From assembly GCF_009742725.1 (NCBI RefSeq), contig NZ_WPHG01000003.1, positions 1 to 64,000 of the forward strand: DNA of 64,000 nt, given 5' to 3'. This document shows, one piece after another, positions 265 through 45,694 of this stretch. Below the pieces are notes generated by a model, which saw nothing but the letters and a program-made list of their open reading frames with translations, ran no database searches and had not been told where the DNA came from. The position numbers and the translations under genes are program-made. Position 1 is the first letter of the stretch. Every line of letters begins with the position of its first letter. Origin of the DNA: Nitratireductor arenosus (GTDB lineage Bacteria; Pseudomonadota; Alphaproteobacteria; Rhizobiales; Rhizobiaceae).

Positions 265-678
265 GTGGCCGCCATGTCACAGGATTCATCGGGTAATTCC
301 GGGAGGAAGAAGCCCGAAACCAGGCCGTTTTCCATTCGCCTTACCGACGCCGAAAAAGCCCTTCTGCTGCACCGCGCGGGCTGTCTGCCGGTGGGCGCCT
401 ATATCCGGGACCGTGTGCTGGGCGACGGCGTGGCGTCAGAACGGGTGCGCTGGCGCAACCCGGTCAAGGATCACGAAGCGCTGGGGCGGGTTCTTGCCGC
501 ACTGGGCCAAACACGGATCGCCAATAATCTGAACCAGCTTGCCAAGGCCGTGAATATCGGCGTGCTGCCGGTCAATGAGGAGACCGAGGCCGATCTTTGT
601 GAAGCCTGCCGCTCGGTGAGCGTCATGCGCTCGGAGCTGATGAAGGCTCTGGGGCTTTCCGGTGGAGATGGGGCATGA
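265..678 (+). CDS. mobC: MobC-like relaxosome accessory protein
   Basis: A 137-residue protein of the plasmid mobilization MobC family. These proteins bind near oriT, open the DNA and help the relaxase nick. The N-terminal half holds a basic ribbon-helix-helix-like segment (FSIRLTDAEKALL, then GAYIRDRVLG). The C-terminal half has the family's conserved NNLNQLAKAVNIG and a final helix with MRSELMKALGL. The annotated start is GTG at 265; an in-frame ATG at 274 is equally possible. Its stop overlaps the relaxase ATG by 4 bases (ATGA), so the two are translationally coupled. The IS end lies about 140 bases upstream and may have displaced the original promoter or oriT context. Confidence 0.85.
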   Translation: MAAMSQDSSGNSGRKKPETRPFSIRLTDAEKALLLHRAGCLPVGAYIRDRVLGDGVASERVRWRNPVKDHEALGRVLAALGQTRIANNLNQLAKAVNIGVLPVNEETEADLCEACRSVSVMRSELMKALGLSGGDGA

Positions 679-1931
679 TTCTCAAAGGCAGCAAACGCGG
701 CGGTGCCTGGGATCTCGGCCGGCATCTGCTCAAGGCCGAGAACGAGCATGTCGAGGTTCACGAGATCAGGGGCTTTGTCGCCGACCGTGTGATCGATGCG
801 CTCAAGGAAGCCGAAGCCATCAGCAAGGGCACACGCTGCCGGAAGTTTCTGTTCTCGCTGGCGCTAAACCCGCCCGAGACGGAAGAGGTGCCTGTTTCCG
901 TTTTCGAGAATGCGGTTGCGTCAATCGAAAAGAAACTCGGGCTTGTCGACCAGCCGCGCGTGATCCTTTTCCATGAAAAGGAAGGCCGGCGTCATGCTCA
1001 CTGCGTGTGGTCGCGGATCGATGCCGAAAGCATGACGGCGATCGATCTCCCCCACTTCAAGCTCAAGCTGATGGATGTCTCAAGGCAGCTCTACCGGGAC
1101 CATGACTGGCGGATGCCGGACGGCATGATCGACCCGGCCTTACGCAGCCCACTCAGTTTCGATCGCAAGGAATGGTTCCAAGCCAAACGTGCCGGCACTG
1201 ATCCGCGCGTCGTCAAGGAAGCGTTCCAGCAATGCTGGGCAGCCTCTGATTCCGGCAAAGCCTTTCGCAGCGCTATGGAACAGCGCGGCTATTACCTCGC
1301 ACGCGGTGACCGCCGCGGCGTGGTCGCCCTCGATCTGGATGGTCAGGTCTATGCCGTCGCCCGCTGGGTTGGCATCCGATCCAAGGACGTTGTCAATCGG
1401 ATGGGGAACGATGCAACGCCCCTGCCATCCGTCACCGAAGCCCGCGAACAGATCAAAGGCCTGGTAAGCCAGAAACTCTCCGCATTCGAGCGGGAAATAT
1501 CCGAGGACTTCGCCCGGGCAGCCCAGCAGCTGGAAGCCGAACGTCTCGTTATGGTCGAGCGGCACAGGGCTGAACGCAGAAAACTACAAACCCTGCATGA
1601 TGAGCGCTGGAACCGCGAGGCCAAAGCCCGCAGCGACCGGTTCCGACGCGGCCTGCGCGGACTATGGGATCGTATCACCGGCCAGCACGCCAGACTGCGC
1701 GAGCAGAACGAGGCAGAAGTCGCCGATGCCAAAGTCCGTGACAACAATGAAAAGCAAGCACTCATAGAACGCCAGCTGCGCGAAAGACGAAGGCTTCAGC
1801 AAGAAATCAAGAAAGAACGGATGCGCCATACGAAGGAGGTGACGCGTTTGCGGCACGATGAGCCAGGCAAGCACAGTCGCCGGCGCGTTCGCTCGATTTG
1901 TCCCGAGCGCCGAAGAAGCATTGAGCCATGA
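675..1931 (+). CDS. Relaxase / mobilization nuclease
   Basis: A 418-residue relaxase that would nick one strand at oriT and pilot it into a recipient. The N-terminal region (MILKGSKRGGAWDLGRHLL) matches a common alphaproteobacterial relaxase family. The metal-binding histidine cluster is H100-EKEGRR-H107-A-H109, followed by CVWSRID. Residues about 255-400 are highly charged and rich in Arg, Glu and Gln, typical of a coiled-coil tail. The protein is shorter than many relatives and ends in a basic tail, so some C-terminal loss is possible. The ATG overlaps the mobC stop. Together with the VirD4-like ATPase at 40213-41649 this defines a mobilizable element. Confidence 0.88.
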   Translation: MILKGSKRGGAWDLGRHLLKAENEHVEVHEIRGFVADRVIDALKEAEAISKGTRCRKFLFSLALNPPETEEVPVSVFENAVASIEKKLGLVDQPRVILFHEKEGRRHAHCVWSRIDAESMTAIDLPHFKLKLMDVSRQLYRDHDWRMPDGMIDPALRSPLSFDRKEWFQAKRAGTDPRVVKEAFQQCWAASDSGKAFRSAMEQRGYYLARGDRRGVVALDLDGQVYAVARWVGIRSKDVVNRMGNDATPLPSVTEAREQIKGLVSQKLSAFEREISEDFARAAQQLEAERLVMVERHRAERRKLQTLHDERWNREAKARSDRFRRGLRGLWDRITGQHARLREQNEAEVADAKVRDNNEKQALIERQLRERRRLQQEIKKERMRHTKEVTRLRHDEPGKHSRRRVRSICPERRRSIEP

Positions 1932-30353: not shown

Positions 30354-30830
30354 ATGCCGCGTCCTCAGAATCCAATATCGCTGATCCATTCGCCTGCTGG
30401 CGACTTCGGGTCAGTTGGTTCGATCAGTCGACTGAAGACTTACAAATATTTCCGGCTCGCTGGCTTTCAGGACTTTCGTTTCCGCGCAGGGATTTTTGAT
30501 AAGAGCCGCCTCTGCGTTGCGGAAATGGTAGAGGGAGCGAAGCGAGAGGTGTCGGCCGCTTGGGGCGCATTCCTGCCGCCCTCACTGAATGAAAACGATC
30601 GACTCGCGAGGTTAGGCGCATCGCAGGTTAAGCGCGCACTCGATGACAAATCGATGTCATTCCAGACAGCGTGTTTAGCTATTGTCGCCTTGGAACTCGC
30701 TGTCCAAGCAACAGGGCGAGACATCGATATCTACGAACGTCGCAGGAATGAAGATCCAGACCCGATAAGGATAGAACCTATGTTGTTCGGACCTGGATCA
30801 GCCCGCCGTCGTCGGCTTAGACCCCGCTGA
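30354..30830 (+). CDS. Unknown protein, relative of the 33158-33865 product
   Basis: A 158-residue protein. Its start (MPRPQNPISLIHSPAGD), a middle WG motif and the end segment (MSFQTACLAIVALELA, GRDIDIYERR, DPIRIEPMLFGPG) align with the 235-residue protein at 33158-33865. They therefore form a pair of paralogues flanking the AlaX-like and oxygenase genes. No catalytic motif or membrane segment. The basic tail (ARRRRLRPR) is unusual. Start ATG 30354 lacks a good ribosome site. Function unknown; it could be a regulator or scaffold for the cluster. Confidence 0.5.
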   Translation: MPRPQNPISLIHSPAGDFGSVGSISRLKTYKYFRLAGFQDFRFRAGIFDKSRLCVAEMVEGAKREVSAAWGAFLPPSLNENDRLARLGASQVKRALDDKSMSFQTACLAIVALELAVQATGRDIDIYERRRNEDPDPIRIEPMLFGPGSARRRRLRPR

Positions 30831-31046: not shown

Positions 31047-31811
31047 TTAGTACCAATACGTCCAAACGGAGGTTAATTTGATGCGCACTCGAAACGAGTT
31101 TGAACTCTGGGTATCCATGATGGGAAACAATTCGTACGCACCAATATTGGTCGTCTGATGGTGTAGACCGCTGCATGGATTTGCATCGACTCCATCAATG
31201 CAAACCAGCCGGATCTTGCCCGTAAGGGAATGTCGATCGCTTATGCGAAACAGATCGCCATACTCTTGTGCTGCGAGTTCAACGGACTTGGCCTTCACGG
31301 CCCTAACAGGCCGTGCGTCAATCACATAGGCTCGCATGGCTCGGTCTACGGCGAAGATATCGGACTGTCGCACTTGGCGGCTAGCCTCAGCGGTTATGTC
31401 GGCAGAGGTGGCATCATCGCTTATTTCGGCTGTATGAACATCGAGGAAACCGAAATGGTTGATGGCGGCTCGAATCGCGAGGTGGATCGCGGTGTGGAGC
31501 CGCCGGCGCCTGCCTCGGTGGTTCGTGTCTATGTGGATGCTAACACGATCACCTGCAGCGAGGTCGAAACTACCATTGCAGATGATCCAAACTTTGCCCT
31601 CAAACTTTGCTGATTGGTTGAACGGTCGAGTATGACCAGACTCAGTTTGGATGAATCCTATGTCGGTCGGCTCGCCGCCCCCAGCGGCCCTCACCAAGTT
31701 CTCCGACGTCGCGAATGCGAGGTTGCCGAGAAGTGACTTGGTGTCCAGTACGGTCGTCGAGATCGATACGATCTCTGGCAGGCGAAGATAGAGATTGACT
31801 TGATCAGTCAT
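31047..31811 (-). CDS. AlaX-like tRNA-editing domain protein
   Basis: A 254-residue protein resembling free-standing alanyl-tRNA editing (AlaX, tRNA_SAD) proteins, which hydrolyse mischarged aminoacyl-tRNA. It shows GGGEPTDIGFI (the GGGQPxDxG motif), GDRVSIHIDT, the zinc pair H106-TAI-H110 and the second pair in C213-SGL-H217, all four expected metal ligands. The C-terminal 30 residues are not part of the usual domain. Start ATG 31811 has GGAG upstream. It is 60 bases downstream of a 2-oxoglutarate oxygenase gene on the same strand, hinting that it removes a tRNA charged with the oxygenase's amino-acid product. Confidence 0.75.
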   Translation of the reverse strand: MTDQVNLYLRLPEIVSISTTVLDTKSLLGNLAFATSENLVRAAGGGEPTDIGFIQTESGHTRPFNQSAKFEGKVWIICNGSFDLAAGDRVSIHIDTNHRGRRRRLHTAIHLAIRAAINHFGFLDVHTAEISDDATSADITAEASRQVRQSDIFAVDRAMRAYVIDARPVRAVKAKSVELAAQEYGDLFRISDRHSLTGKIRLVCIDGVDANPCSGLHHQTTNIGAYELFPIMDTQSSNSFRVRIKLTSVWTYWY

Positions 31812-31871
31812 GACGTACTCCGCAAAGTAAGAAGGTGGCGAAGCGTTGCTCCGCCACCAGTTGCTGTAGGG

Positions 31872-32882
31872 TTAGTCGGTAAGGGACGTGACGAAAGGAT
31901 CGACCGGAAAAATAGGTCCCGGCTGCCCCGTCACTTTACGGAGCAGTTCGAGGCTTCGAACGCTGTATGTCCGAAAAACAAGACGGTCGCCGGAACCAAT
32001 CGCGCCGCGCTTGTGTGCGCCCCGCAAGTTGTTGAAGGTGAGAAAGCAACCCGGATCGAGCGGCATGCCGACAGCGCGTTGGTTAAGAGCTGTCTTGAGC
32101 GCAACCAGCGCCGCCGCAGCTAAGGTGTCATCGGAAGCGATTGGGCGGGTCGCATAACTGGGAAATCGGAGTTCAAACTCGTTGCTAGGACCGCGGGTAA
32201 CGATAGCGCAGGGCTGAGACCATCTGTCAGTGCCTACGCCAAAGCTGATGGGAAAGCGCACGCGAAATCGCGGCTCAGACAGCACCTCCTTGTGTTCGCG
32301 ATCGAGCGAAAGCAGTGCATCGCCTACAGGCGAATAGCTGGTTAACGTTCCGGGCGGATTTTGTATGCCATAGAGATTGATGAACTCAGTGCGGGCCTCG
32401 CGAGGCATGGCGGCGTCGTCTGTATGGATGTCGAATTCATCACGGGTCGAGTTGGTGTTCGCCGCAGACTCCTGCAGCGGTCGAAGTTCCATTATTAACC
32501 TCCCCTCGTTCTGAGAGGAGTAGTTAAAGAGCATCCCCAGCTCGCGAGACATCCCCAGTAACGCAAGCTGGGCTCGGACCTCATCCGTAGGAAGCCCTGT
32601 GATATATAGCGCATCAAGCTTGCCGTTCTTCGCTTGGCGCAGCAGCTGCGAAACATGCGGAAGTGTATCCCGGATCAGAGCGCGCGCGGCGCCACCGATC
32701 GCGGCTTGCTCGTCTGGTTCATCCGGCCAGCGGATTGCTGCCGCAAACCGGTCGATTTCGAGTTCCAGGATTTTGCGTTCGTCTACAGCTAAAGCCGCAG
32801 TTTGAACGCGATCCGACGCGTTCGCGAGACACTGCGAACAAACTCCAGAACAGGCATCTTGACATACATGCTTTGCAAACAT
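31872..32882 (-). CDS. Clavaminate-synthase-like Fe(II)/2-oxoglutarate oxygenase with Cys-rich N-terminus
   Basis: A 336-residue protein. The double-stranded beta-helix carries the iron triad H153-T-D155 and H290 (in NNLRGAHKRGAI), followed by the 2-oxoglutarate arginine near R300/R304 (RLVFRTYSVR). These fit the clavaminate-synthase/VioC/AsnO branch, which hydroxylates amino acids. Residues 7-18 form C-x3-C-x3-C-x2-C, not usual in the family, perhaps a zinc or iron-sulfur site or a fused leader. Start ATG 32882 has GGAG upstream and so includes the Cys motif. It lies in an operon with the AlaX-like gene. Substrate unknown. Confidence 0.78.
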   Translation of the reverse strand: MFAKHVCQDACSGVCSQCLANASDRVQTAALAVDERKILELEIDRFAAAIRWPDEPDEQAAIGGAARALIRDTLPHVSQLLRQAKNGKLDALYITGLPTDEVRAQLALLGMSRELGMLFNYSSQNEGRLIMELRPLQESAANTNSTRDEFDIHTDDAAMPREARTEFINLYGIQNPPGTLTSYSPVGDALLSLDREHKEVLSEPRFRVRFPISFGVGTDRWSQPCAIVTRGPSNEFELRFPSYATRPIASDDTLAAAALVALKTALNQRAVGMPLDPGCFLTFNNLRGAHKRGAIGSGDRLVFRTYSVRSLELLRKVTGQPGPIFPVDPFVTSLTD

Positions 32883-32986
32883 GGCATTTCTCCATTTCTG
32901 GGTTGGAAATGCCTTGCCTGCGCAAAGATCAGGCTCTACGTTGCAACCTTCCGCAGCTGCGGCGAGAACATCACGTCGCGCAAGCA

Positions 32987-33012
32987 GGCACCGTCACTTT
33001 TGTGACGGTGCC
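32987..33012. promoter_or_regulatory. Perfect hairpin upstream of the oxygenase and its divergent neighbour
   Basis: Arms GGCACCGTCAC and GTGACGGTGCC around TTTT in the 32883-33157 gap between divergent genes. It may act as an operator or transcript hairpin; no T-run follows on either strand. No small precursor-peptide gene was seen in the gap. Confidence 0.5.
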
Positions 33013-33157
33013 AATTTATTGGTCGCTGAATCGGCGGTACACTGAACGTGTTGGAACGTTCCTGGACCAGTTAAGATTTTCTAGAACCAGAGCTTGCAGG
33101 AAGCTCCCCAGCCGGTCTAATTCTACGCCAACCAAGGATTCTGAGGAGGGTGGCAGA

Positions 33158-33865
33158 ATGCCGCGACCGACTTCGCCATATGATTTGATCTATGCCCCAG
33201 GTGACGATGTCGCGTACCCGGATTGGCTGCATGACGTCGGCGATCGAAGCGTTTTCAGGATCAGTGGCCTGTGGGAGTACCGTATCGCTACCGGGCGCGA
33301 TGACAGCGGGAAGAAGGGATTTGCTAACCCGGCCCGCTTGGAACGGGCCACCGCAAAACTAGCGCAGTACGGTTGGGATACGTACTGCGAACCGGCCAGG
33401 ACACCCCTGTCAGCAACCGGCGTTGCGACGATATTGCGGGCGCGTGACGGCCGGCGCACTAAGATGAGTCTTCATAGCGCCCTGCTTCTCATCCTTATGC
33501 TTGAAGATTTCCTGGCCGAGCGAGGGTCGCCGATTGACATTTACTCCGGCGGGTTCACACCTCGCTTGCCAGCCCCTGTCAGGATCGTCCCGTACATTTT
33601 TGATCTGAAGCAGGCGACCGCAGCGAGACTTGATGATCTTATCAGGCGAGGGCGGGAGATTCGCCGTCGAGCTTACCAGGAAAATTTGGATTTCCTCGAA
33701 CATATGTGCCGCTGCGAGGAGATGTTCAGTGAACATACTTGTCGAGTGGTGTCCGAAGAAGGGCAACTTGAGGCTGGAATCGATACCGTGATCCGCAGAA
33801 AAAAGAACTCAGGTAATGGGTATCGCGTTGCCTGCAACCTAGATCGAGTTGTTTACCCTATTTAA
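33158..33865 (+). CDS. Unknown protein, larger paralogue
   Basis: A 235-residue protein with the same layout as the 30354-30830 product: MPRPTSPYDLIYAPGDD, FRISGLWEYR, an inner stretch with ARLERATAKL, MSLHSALLLILMLEDF, SPIDIYSGG and PVRIVPYIF. It has an extra C-terminal 85 residues with two Cys (MCRCEEMFSEHTCRV). GAGGAGGG lies 7 bases before ATG 33158. No known domain is evident. Its divergent arrangement to the oxygenase gene and its repetition on both sides of the cluster point to a cluster-specific role. Confidence 0.6.
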   Translation: MPRPTSPYDLIYAPGDDVAYPDWLHDVGDRSVFRISGLWEYRIATGRDDSGKKGFANPARLERATAKLAQYGWDTYCEPARTPLSATGVATILRARDGRRTKMSLHSALLLILMLEDFLAERGSPIDIYSGGFTPRLPAPVRIVPYIFDLKQATAARLDDLIRRGREIRRRAYQENLDFLEHMCRCEEMFSEHTCRVVSEEGQLEAGIDTVIRRKKNSGNGYRVACNLDRVVYPI

Positions 33866-39944: not shown

Positions 39945-40216
39945 AGACGCCGCGCCAGCCTCTCGGCCTGATTGGTCCGCGCCCGCTCTTTGAGCCGGTA
40001 TTGAAGCCACGGGCCACCCTCGTCGCGCCACCCGGCAGCGGCAAGACGACCTGCGTTGCGGTGCCGTTCGTTGGCCCTGGCGGGCAGGATCGCGATCCCG
40101 GCGTCACCGAAGACCACAAGGGCAGGTCGCTTCCGACATCGTTTGTCCGCGCCCCGCGCGGCGGTCGCCAGCCGGTCGTATTCGATCCGTTTTATATGAG
40201 GAGCAAGCGGCCATGA
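39941..40216 (+). CDS. Truncated VirD4/TraG paralogue
   Basis: A 91-residue protein. Its start (RPLFEPVLKPRATLV, then Walker A APPGSGKTT, then CVAVPFV) matches the N-terminal part of the coupling ATPase encoded next (RPILEPKNAGSTLV, GGGKTT, CVAVPAI). The remainder (GRSLPTSFVRAPRGGRQPVVFDPF) echoes the beginning of the next motif and then stops. It is therefore a short tandem copy, either a decayed duplication or a small regulator of the ATPase. Walker B and the rest are missing, so it cannot hydrolyse ATP alone. It is translated in frame with good overlaps. Confidence 0.55.
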   Translation: MKTPRQPLGLIGPRPLFEPVLKPRATLVAPPGSGKTTCVAVPFVGPGGQDRDPGVTEDHKGRSLPTSFVRAPRGGRQPVVFDPFYMRSKRP

Positions 40217-41649
40217 GATGGCTCCGCCCTTTCCGCCCGCGCCGCCGGCATGCACCCGCCGGACGCCGCATTCTCGGGCTGACCTTTGACGGGCGTCCGA
40301 TCCTGGAACCCAAAAACGCCGGCTCGACGCTTGTGTTCGCGGCCGCGGGCGGCGGCAAGACGACCTGCGTCGCGGTCCCGGCGATCGAATGCCTGCTGGC
40401 GGATCCCGGCCGGGCGTTTTTTGCCAATGATGTCAAACAGGGCGAGATCGCCGCGCAGGTGGCGCCGCTTTGCGCCATTCATGGCCGCAAGTTCGGCATG
40501 GTCGACGACTTCGCCGTGCTGGGCAAGGACAATCCCTTTCGTCTCTCGCTCAACCCGTTCGGCGCGGCGGTGGAGGCCGTGCGCAACGACGATGACGATT
40601 TGCCCTTCATCATCGACAATATCTGTCATGCGCTGATCGAAGAACCGAAGGAGGATGCCAAGAATTTTTATTGGCGCGAGAGCCCGCGCGAGTTCCTGGC
40701 CGTCGGCCTCAATATCCTGCTCGCGCGACACCCGCGGCTGGCAACCCCAGGCGGGCTGAACGCGCTTTTGCGCGATCCGCGCTCCTGGCACAGGGCTTTG
40801 TCGGACGCTGCCGATGCCGATGACATGATATTGGCTACCGGCGCGCACCAGATCCTGGCGCTGATGGCGGACAATCCCGAGCATTATTCGCAGCATCTGC
40901 GCGCGGCACTCTCTGCGCTCAAGATCTACGCCAGCGGGCCGCTTGCCGAGGCCGGGCGTTCGCCCGATCTCACGCACCGTGAGCTGATCGCGGATGGCTG
41001 GGGGGTGTGTTTTGTCAATCCGGCGCGCCATACCGACCGGCTCGGCGCGCATTACGCCCTGCACTTCCTGGCGCTGATGAACGCGCAGCTCTCGGGCAAT
41101 GTCGGCGCGGCGGACTATATTCTCGATGAGGTCTGCAACGCGCCGATGCGCGATGCGCTGAACCGCGTCACGATCCAGCGCGCCTACCGCGCTCGCTCCA
41201 TCTTCATCGCGCAGTCTCGCCAGGACATCGTCCGCCGTTATGGCGAGAAAGAAACCGCGATCCTTGAGGAGAACTGCACCACCAAGCAGTGGCTGAAGTT
41301 CTCGAACTTCGAGGAAGCCGAGCGTGTCTCCAAAGCGATGGGCGACGGCCAGGCGGTCTCGACGGGCCTGGGGCTGAGCTCGAACCGCAATGATTATTCC
41401 AGCAATTACTCGAGCGGGCGCGAGCGCCTGTTCACCGCCGACATGCTGATGAAGCTCCCGCCGGACGAGCAGATCGTCCACCTCCCGGATGTGGGCTTCA
41501 TCCATTGCAAAAAGATCCGCCAGAACGAGATCGGACCGTTCTGCTTCGATCTTGGCGCCAACCCGCTCGAAGGCGCGCCGCTGCCGCCTGATCCCAAGGT
41601 GTGGCTGGACGTTCCGCCGGCGCGTGATGCCGGGGAGGACGCCGCATGA
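40213..41649 (+). CDS. VirD4/TraG-family coupling ATPase
   Basis: A 478-residue type IV coupling protein. Walker A is at residues about 43-51 (GGGKTT, K49), with a Walker B-like stretch in YILDEVCNAP and a TSQ-type sensor segment (FIAQSRQDI). These ATPases hand the relaxase-DNA complex to a secretion channel. Unlike typical VirD4, which begins with two membrane helices, this one starts at the ATPase domain, so its anchor must come from another protein, perhaps one of the membrane proteins encoded upstream. The ATG overlaps the previous stop by 4 bases. Confidence 0.88.
   Translation: MRWLRPFRPRRRHAPAGRRILGLTFDGRPILEPKNAGSTLVFAAAGGGKTTCVAVPAIECLLADPGRAFFANDVKQGEIAAQVAPLCAIHGRKFGMVDDFAVLGKDNPFRLSLNPFGAAVEAVRNDDDDLPFIIDNICHALIEEPKEDAKNFYWRESPREFLAVGLNILLARHPRLATPGGLNALLRDPRSWHRALSDAADADDMILATGAHQILALMADNPEHYSQHLRAALSALKIYASGPLAEAGRSPDLTHRELIADGWGVCFVNPARHTDRLGAHYALHFLALMNAQLSGNVGAADYILDEVCNAPMRDALNRVTIQRAYRARSIFIAQSRQDIVRRYGEKETAILEENCTTKQWLKFSNFEEAERVSKAMGDGQAVSTGLGLSSNRNDYSSNYSSGRERLFTADMLMKLPPDEQIVHLPDVGFIHCKKIRQNEIGPFCFDLGANPLEGAPLPPDPKVWLDVPPARDAGEDAA

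Positions 41650-44020: not shown

Positions 44021-44024
<4 letters not shown>
43584..44024 (+). CDS. Small protein upstream of the integrase
   Basis: A 146-residue acidic protein from ATG 43584. One amphipathic helical region is conserved-looking ([40 protein letters not shown], in pieces). The tail is low-complexity ([19 protein letters not shown]). Its stop overlaps the integrase ATG by 4 bases, so it may be an excision or regulation factor for the integrase. The family is unknown to me. Confidence 0.55.

Positions 44025-45694
<1,670 letters not shown>

Follow-up and report, generated by a model that had tools for sequence, protein, structure and literature searches.

A clavaminate-synthase-like oxygenase gene beside an AlaX-type tRNA-editing gene in Nitratireductor arenosus: a possible antimetabolite and immunity pair on a mobilizable element

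Most clavaminate-synthase-like (CSL) oxygenases work in natural-product pathways, and to our knowledge very few cases are known in which a dedicated tRNA editor protects a producer. One such editor is FthB of Streptomyces cattleya, an INS-type fluorothreonyl-tRNA deacylase with a role in producer protection, as given in a passage of PMC11295145 that cites McMurry and Chang 2017. CtdA is a B3/4-type canavanyl-tRNA(Arg) deacylase (PMC10018355). In this work a stretch of 64,000 nucleotides from Nitratireductor arenosus (assembly GCF_009742725.1, contig NZ_WPHG01000003.1, positions 1 to 64,000; hereafter the window) was analysed for two adjacent genes, which encode a CSL-type oxygenase and an AlaX-like editing protein. 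The pair stands about an even chance of being an antimetabolite-plus-immunity module. Both families, the catalytic residues, the lost cation sub-pocket, the mobile setting and the recurrent linkage, once as a fusion, are established. The pair is arranged as follows:

31872-32882, minus strand: CSL-type Fe(II)/2-oxoglutarate oxygenase of 336 amino acids, identified by family matches and residues, with residue roles taken from PMC6224419
31812-31871, minus strand: intergenic gap of 60 bp with a terminator-like hairpin at 31834-31858; the count of hairpin-type sites is not above chance
31047-31811, minus strand: divergent AlaX-type aminoacyl-tRNA editing protein of 254 amino acids, identified by profile and PDB matches and by its zinc ligands

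A sequence-only reading of the window had named an iron triad (H153/D155/H290) in the first protein and four AlaX-like zinc ligands (H106, H110, C213, H217) in the second, encoded on one strand and 60 bases apart. The open reading frames (ORFs) were found so, on the minus strand, and their coordinates and all of the named residues proved exact.

The oxygenase matched the NCBIfam families GntD (E 1.7e-15), VioC (6.8e-10) and clavaminate synthase (1.2e-6), and Pfam TauD at 6e-7, above the cut-off. The PDB matches were NapI (6daw, E 9e-14) and VioC (8e-11). On sequence evidence the protein is an Fe(II)/2-oxoglutarate oxygenase of the CSL group, and the family match is not due to chance. H153, D155 and H290 aligned with the iron triad of VioC, CAS and the compared relatives. 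In the published map of the CSL pocket, a Gln or Glu at P2 contacts the alpha-amino group, an Arg at P18 binds 2-oxoglutarate and an Arg at P19 binds the substrate carboxylate, the DXXD sub-pocket (P12-P15) takes cationic side chains, and the substrates of the characterised enzymes are free amino acids or derivatives (PMC6224419). Q124 (P2) aligned with VioC Q137, and R300 (P18) and R304 (P19) were invariant across the alignments compared. The DXXD sub-pocket expected of a VioC-type arginine hydroxylase was gone, with D222 and D268 of VioC replaced by P211 and P241, followed by Y243. A matching pattern of P, A and Y was observed in the Geminocystis relative described below. Retention of the alpha-amino and alpha-carboxylate readers, together with loss of the acidic DXXD, points to a free amino acid as the probable substrate, one whose side chain is neutral or acidic; on the pocket residues arginine was rejected. 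An AlphaFold model made from single-sequence input as a check of the jelly-roll fold gave a pLDDT of 36.

The AlaX-like protein matched NCBIfam AlaXM over residues 43-245 (E 2.7e-20), with 73 bits compared to a curated cut-off of 300, and AlaX-M of Pyrococcus in the PDB (E 4e-4). A Pfam scan of the protein gave no match. On these results it was regarded as a divergent member; its identity to canonical bacterial AlaX is about 25-30%. The cut-off itself is not decisive, since the canonical AlaX of the host also falls short of it (183 bits). Both zinc-ligand motifs of AlaX, HxxxH and CxxxH, were present, and so was the glycine motif GGxxxD, with G45, G46 and D50 invariant towards canonical AlaX. 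The motif reads GGGEPTD in the window protein and GGQPxD in canonical AlaX, E47 replacing the canonical Q, a change that may fit an altered aminoacyl specificity. The activity expected of AlaX proteins is hydrolysis of Ser- or Gly-tRNA(Ala), with reading of G3:U70. The single-sequence AlphaFold model, used to check the editing fold, had a pLDDT of 35. Canonical AlaX and AlaRS are encoded elsewhere in the host genome, which would make a housekeeping role of the window copy redundant; such a role was judged unlikely. AlaX genes were also seen in other settings. On Sinorhizobium meliloti pSymB (L052, 2911-4708) a canonical AlaX immediately follows cysteine synthase A. On plasmid p5 of Azospirillum argentinense (L075, 241-8888) an AlaX-like protein annotated as 'metal-dependent hydrolase' lies inside a non-ribosomal peptide synthetase (NRPS)-like amino-acid cluster, together with genes for an Asp/Asn beta-hydroxylase, a class III aminotransferase, an adenylation protein, an acyl carrier protein, a diiron oxygenase and a MATE exporter. 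The family of this protein looks like unannotated AlaX-type editors.

An editing domain was found near the oxygenase in 4 of 27 other CSL-oxygenase neighbourhoods, namely those of a Geminocystis plasmid and of genomes G994, G1264 and G1040. Counting the window, the linkage occurs in five places, one of them a fusion. The closest oxygenase found (37% identity, E 1e-30 compared to 1e-12 for the next) is encoded on the 42-kb Geminocystis plasmid, and two genes downstream of it is an editor of the INS/YbaK family (PF04073, E 3e-16). The same plasmid, pGM3709_01, encodes a protein with a B3/4 domain, the type found in CtdA, beside a DUF6014 protein (L064, 21345-23370), and also a glyoxalase/FosB-like VOC protein. 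In G1264 (L067, G1264:C43, 4290-10217) a POT peptide transporter, a CSL oxygenase, an amino-acid permease, an AlaX-like protein and an EamA exporter stand in a row, and start and stop codons overlap at the oxygenase/permease and permease/AlaX-like junctions. The AlaX-like protein of this row has 296 amino acids with HSLSH and PCGGTH, and by profile comparison its family is homologous to AlaX (probability 97.8, E 8.6e-13). In G994 the two parts of an INS domain lie at separate contig ends, with the oxygenase about 100 bp downstream and then a MATE exporter. One contig finishes with '...RLVVDPS' and the other begins with 'SLLNDNTHIAFNAG', matching 'FIDRSLLNHDVVGFNAA' of Geminocystis; the contigs would join across the split INS gene. 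In G1040 (L068, G1040:C41, 5568-7301) an uninterrupted ORF of 577 amino acids holds a TauD-type oxygenase (117-308) and PF04073 (433-554, E 3.2e-22), and is, as read from the ORF, a natural fusion of a CSL oxygenase with an INS-type editing domain.

The AlaX profile was run over 2,851 ORFs and matched only the window protein, the G1264 protein and a broken AlaX of Pararhizobium. INS-type matches, with sensitivity limited to one query, were those of Geminocystis, G994 and G1040. INS/YbaK-type editors are thus the commoner partner outside the window, and differing editing families appear to serve one type of partner, the CSL oxygenase. The sub-pocket Asp residues also vary among the editor-linked oxygenases (both kept in G1264, one in G1040, neither in G994), and the products of the modules therefore need not be common to all. 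The chance of finding 4 of 27 neighbourhoods linked was estimated at about 1e-4 to 4e-6 by a model that allows each genome three to five standalone editors and takes in three genes on each side, a rough figure given that the loci were not sampled at random, that some Streptomyces loci are related and that one INS query was used. The G1040 fusion is separate and stronger evidence for a shared pathway than the neighbourhood counts. G1264 fell in another clade of the tree than the window and Geminocystis oxygenases, which indicates that the pairing arose repeatedly or was often lost.

Oxygenase genes with partners other than editors were also noted. In Sulfobacillus (L022, 4532-7727) the CSL oxygenase is beside an argininosuccinate-synthase-domain protein and a DMT transporter, and in G833 (L038, 5178-7429) it is beside a protein that by eye resembles this partner; neither locus has an editor. 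The combination with an argininosuccinate-synthase-type gene is possibly another amino-acid antimetabolite unit. The Streptomyces loci carry aspartate kinase and aspartate-semialdehyde dehydrogenase genes or NRPS and polyketide synthase genes, and no editor.

The exact pair is rare. At the set thresholds the window oxygenase had no other match in 249 genomes of the family, 385 of the class and 4 of the genus, and it was absent from the three congeners examined. A two-row profile gave distant relatives only, in 6 of 399 phylum genomes. A wider contig collection, scanned with each protein of the pair, held no relative, nor did viral contigs and phages. A plasmid of Pararhizobium sp. A13 (L019, 5953-6741) carries the interrupted AlaX-like relative mentioned above, whose C-terminus has a similar W-x-Y-W; no oxygenase lies in its vicinity, and it is a probable relic.

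Several of the results weigh against a functional unit of oxygenase and editor. The window pairing was met in one genome only among the roughly 1,000 sampled from family, class and phylum, and 23 of the 27 neighbourhoods had no editing partner. The editor-linked oxygenases do not form one clade, and the branch of the window protein is long and weakly placed. A terminator-like hairpin (31834-31858, minus strand) lies between the two genes, although 3 terminator-like sites were found in the region compared to 2.3 expected by chance. A scan for promoter consensus sequences gave no promoter-like site, and co-transcription of the pair is thus a possibility only. No exporter or further biosynthetic gene adjoins the window pair. 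The hairpin, the mixed cargo regions and the lack of the exact pair in a second sampled genome are what would be expected of two separately acquired cargo genes, side by side by chance, with the AlaX-like protein an ordinary editor of Ser/Gly-tRNA(Ala). Such a lack of connection is nevertheless distinctly unlikely, as the pairing recurs and is fused in relatives and a canonical AlaX is already present in the host. It is also opposed by the base composition. The third-position G+C of the pair is 0.60 and 0.59, compared to 0.80-0.85 in four other window genes, and this shared low value, as predicted for joint acquisition, suggests that the two genes were probably acquired together. The sequence-only reading had made its proposed two-gene unit depend on co-occurrence in other genomes. 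This was found, with an editing gene by a related oxygenase in three other genomes or plasmids and one fusion. The functional link is thereby supported, whereas the exact oxygenase-AlaX pairing is rarer than that reading implied and the partner is more often of the INS/YbaK type.

The surroundings of the pair contain genes of a mobile element:

265-1931, plus strand: MobC/NikA-like protein and MobA/VirD2-type relaxase
40213-41649, plus strand: type IV coupling protein (TraG/TraD/VirD4)
44021-45694, plus strand: large serine recombinase, whose ORF overlaps the tRNA-Arg(CCG) gene located at 45552-45628 on the opposite (minus) strand

ParB is also encoded on the element, and its other cargo includes a copper oxidase/TolC-type region. 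Judged by these genes, the pair is cargo of an integrative mobilizable element beside tRNA-Arg, and the overlap of recombinase and tRNA-Arg(CCG) is the probable integration end. No 18-base repeats of the tRNA-Arg gene were found within the window, so the other end of the element, not found there, may lie outside it. Two plus-strand ORFs (30354-30830 and 32663-33865) flank the pair; they have a common 'MPRP...' start and no Pfam match, and are possibly regulators typical of such elements. Riboswitch control was looked for and not found.

The location on mobile DNA bears on what the pair does. The window pair is on a mobilizable element and the Geminocystis pair on a 42-kb plasmid, and both units are small and free of transporters, as could be expected of an addiction or self-selection module in which the oxygenase turns an amino acid of the host into a poison, the editor acts as antidote and loss of the element is harmful. 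Such a module seems very improbable: its classic form requires the antidote to be the less stable of the two, of which there was no sign, the copies in G994, G1264 and G1040 are not known as mobile, and those in G994 and G1264 come with exporters. The same exporters, the biosynthetic roles of the CSL enzymes known so far, and the AlaX-like relative with MATE in the Azospirillum NRPS-like cluster favour production of an amino-acid analogue over the main rival explanation, a detoxification cassette. In such a cassette the oxygenase would inactivate a toxic amino-acid analogue taken up from outside and any analogue already on tRNA would be cleared by the AlaX-like protein, giving resistance and not production. 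This alternative is unlikely, but it has to be weighed because the window pair has no exporter, because it shares its element with resistance-type cargo, the copper-oxidase/TolC-type genes, and because CtdA is encoded with a canavanine degradation pathway (PMC10018355). The B3/4-domain and glyoxalase/FosB-like VOC proteins on the Geminocystis plasmid are also in its favour.

If the pair is an antimetabolite-plus-immunity module, the oxygenase would bind a free L-amino acid, neutral or acidic in its side chain, through the alpha-amino group (Q124) and alpha-carboxylate (R304) of this substrate and would hydroxylate or desaturate it. The product would be near enough to a protein amino acid for loading onto tRNA, and the AlaX-like protein would hydrolyse the misloaded aminoacyl-tRNA ahead of the ribosome. 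The pair would travel as cargo of the integrative mobilizable element. What we infer here is the substrate and the product, the toxicity, the target tRNA and which way the chemistry runs, including that the oxygenase makes, rather than destroys, the misloaded amino acid.

More tentatively, and with somewhat less than even confidence, CSL oxygenases and aminoacyl-tRNA deacylases may make up a recurring kind of antimetabolite-immunity module, as yet without a name, whose editors were recruited repeatedly from unrelated families (AlaX, INS/YbaK, perhaps B3/4) and once fused to the oxygenase. On mobile elements such modules may spread as a chemical weapon with its immunity or as a metabolic toxin-antitoxin. 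If the general module is real, the editing gene would be a marker by which further amino-acid antimetabolites could be found, and the kind of editor would indicate the tRNA and hence the amino acid imitated by the product. The G1040 fusion makes the oxygenase-editor link directly testable in a single protein. Within the open-licence literature, subscription literature being outside the search, no AlaX-type editor in a biosynthetic cluster or protective role, no CSL oxygenase-editor pair and no such fusion were found.

Compared to VioC, NapI, GntD, AsnO and clavaminate synthase, the window oxygenase shares the H-x-D/E...H triad, the 2-oxoglutarate arginine and the readers of alpha-amino and alpha-carboxylate groups, but it lacks DXXD (P211, P241, Y243), has a shorter loop before the R300 motif and has an editing protein as neighbour. 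AlaXp-M (e.g. Pyrococcus horikoshii 2e1b) resembles the window editor in the editing-domain profile, the glycine motif and the four zinc ligands; the window protein differs in the change from GGQ to GGE, in its 73 bits where the cut-off is 300, in being a second AlaX copy in its host and in its oxygenase neighbour. In the partner pathway of FthB, 4-fluorothreonine is made and no CSL oxygenase takes part. A dedicated deacylase that protects its producer (FthB) and a standalone antimetabolite editor (CtdA) are already known, as far as the cited passages describe them. With FthB the window pair would have in common a dedicated trans-editing deacylase that shields the producer from its own amino-acid analogue, whereas FthB, in that passage, is of the INS/ProXp-ST1 family and the window editor is of AlaX type (PMC11295145). 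CtdA is likewise a standalone editor dedicated to a single antimetabolite, and its gene accompanies a pathway that metabolises this compound, but it belongs to the B3/4 family and is linked to the breakdown of an outside toxin, not to production (PMC10018355).
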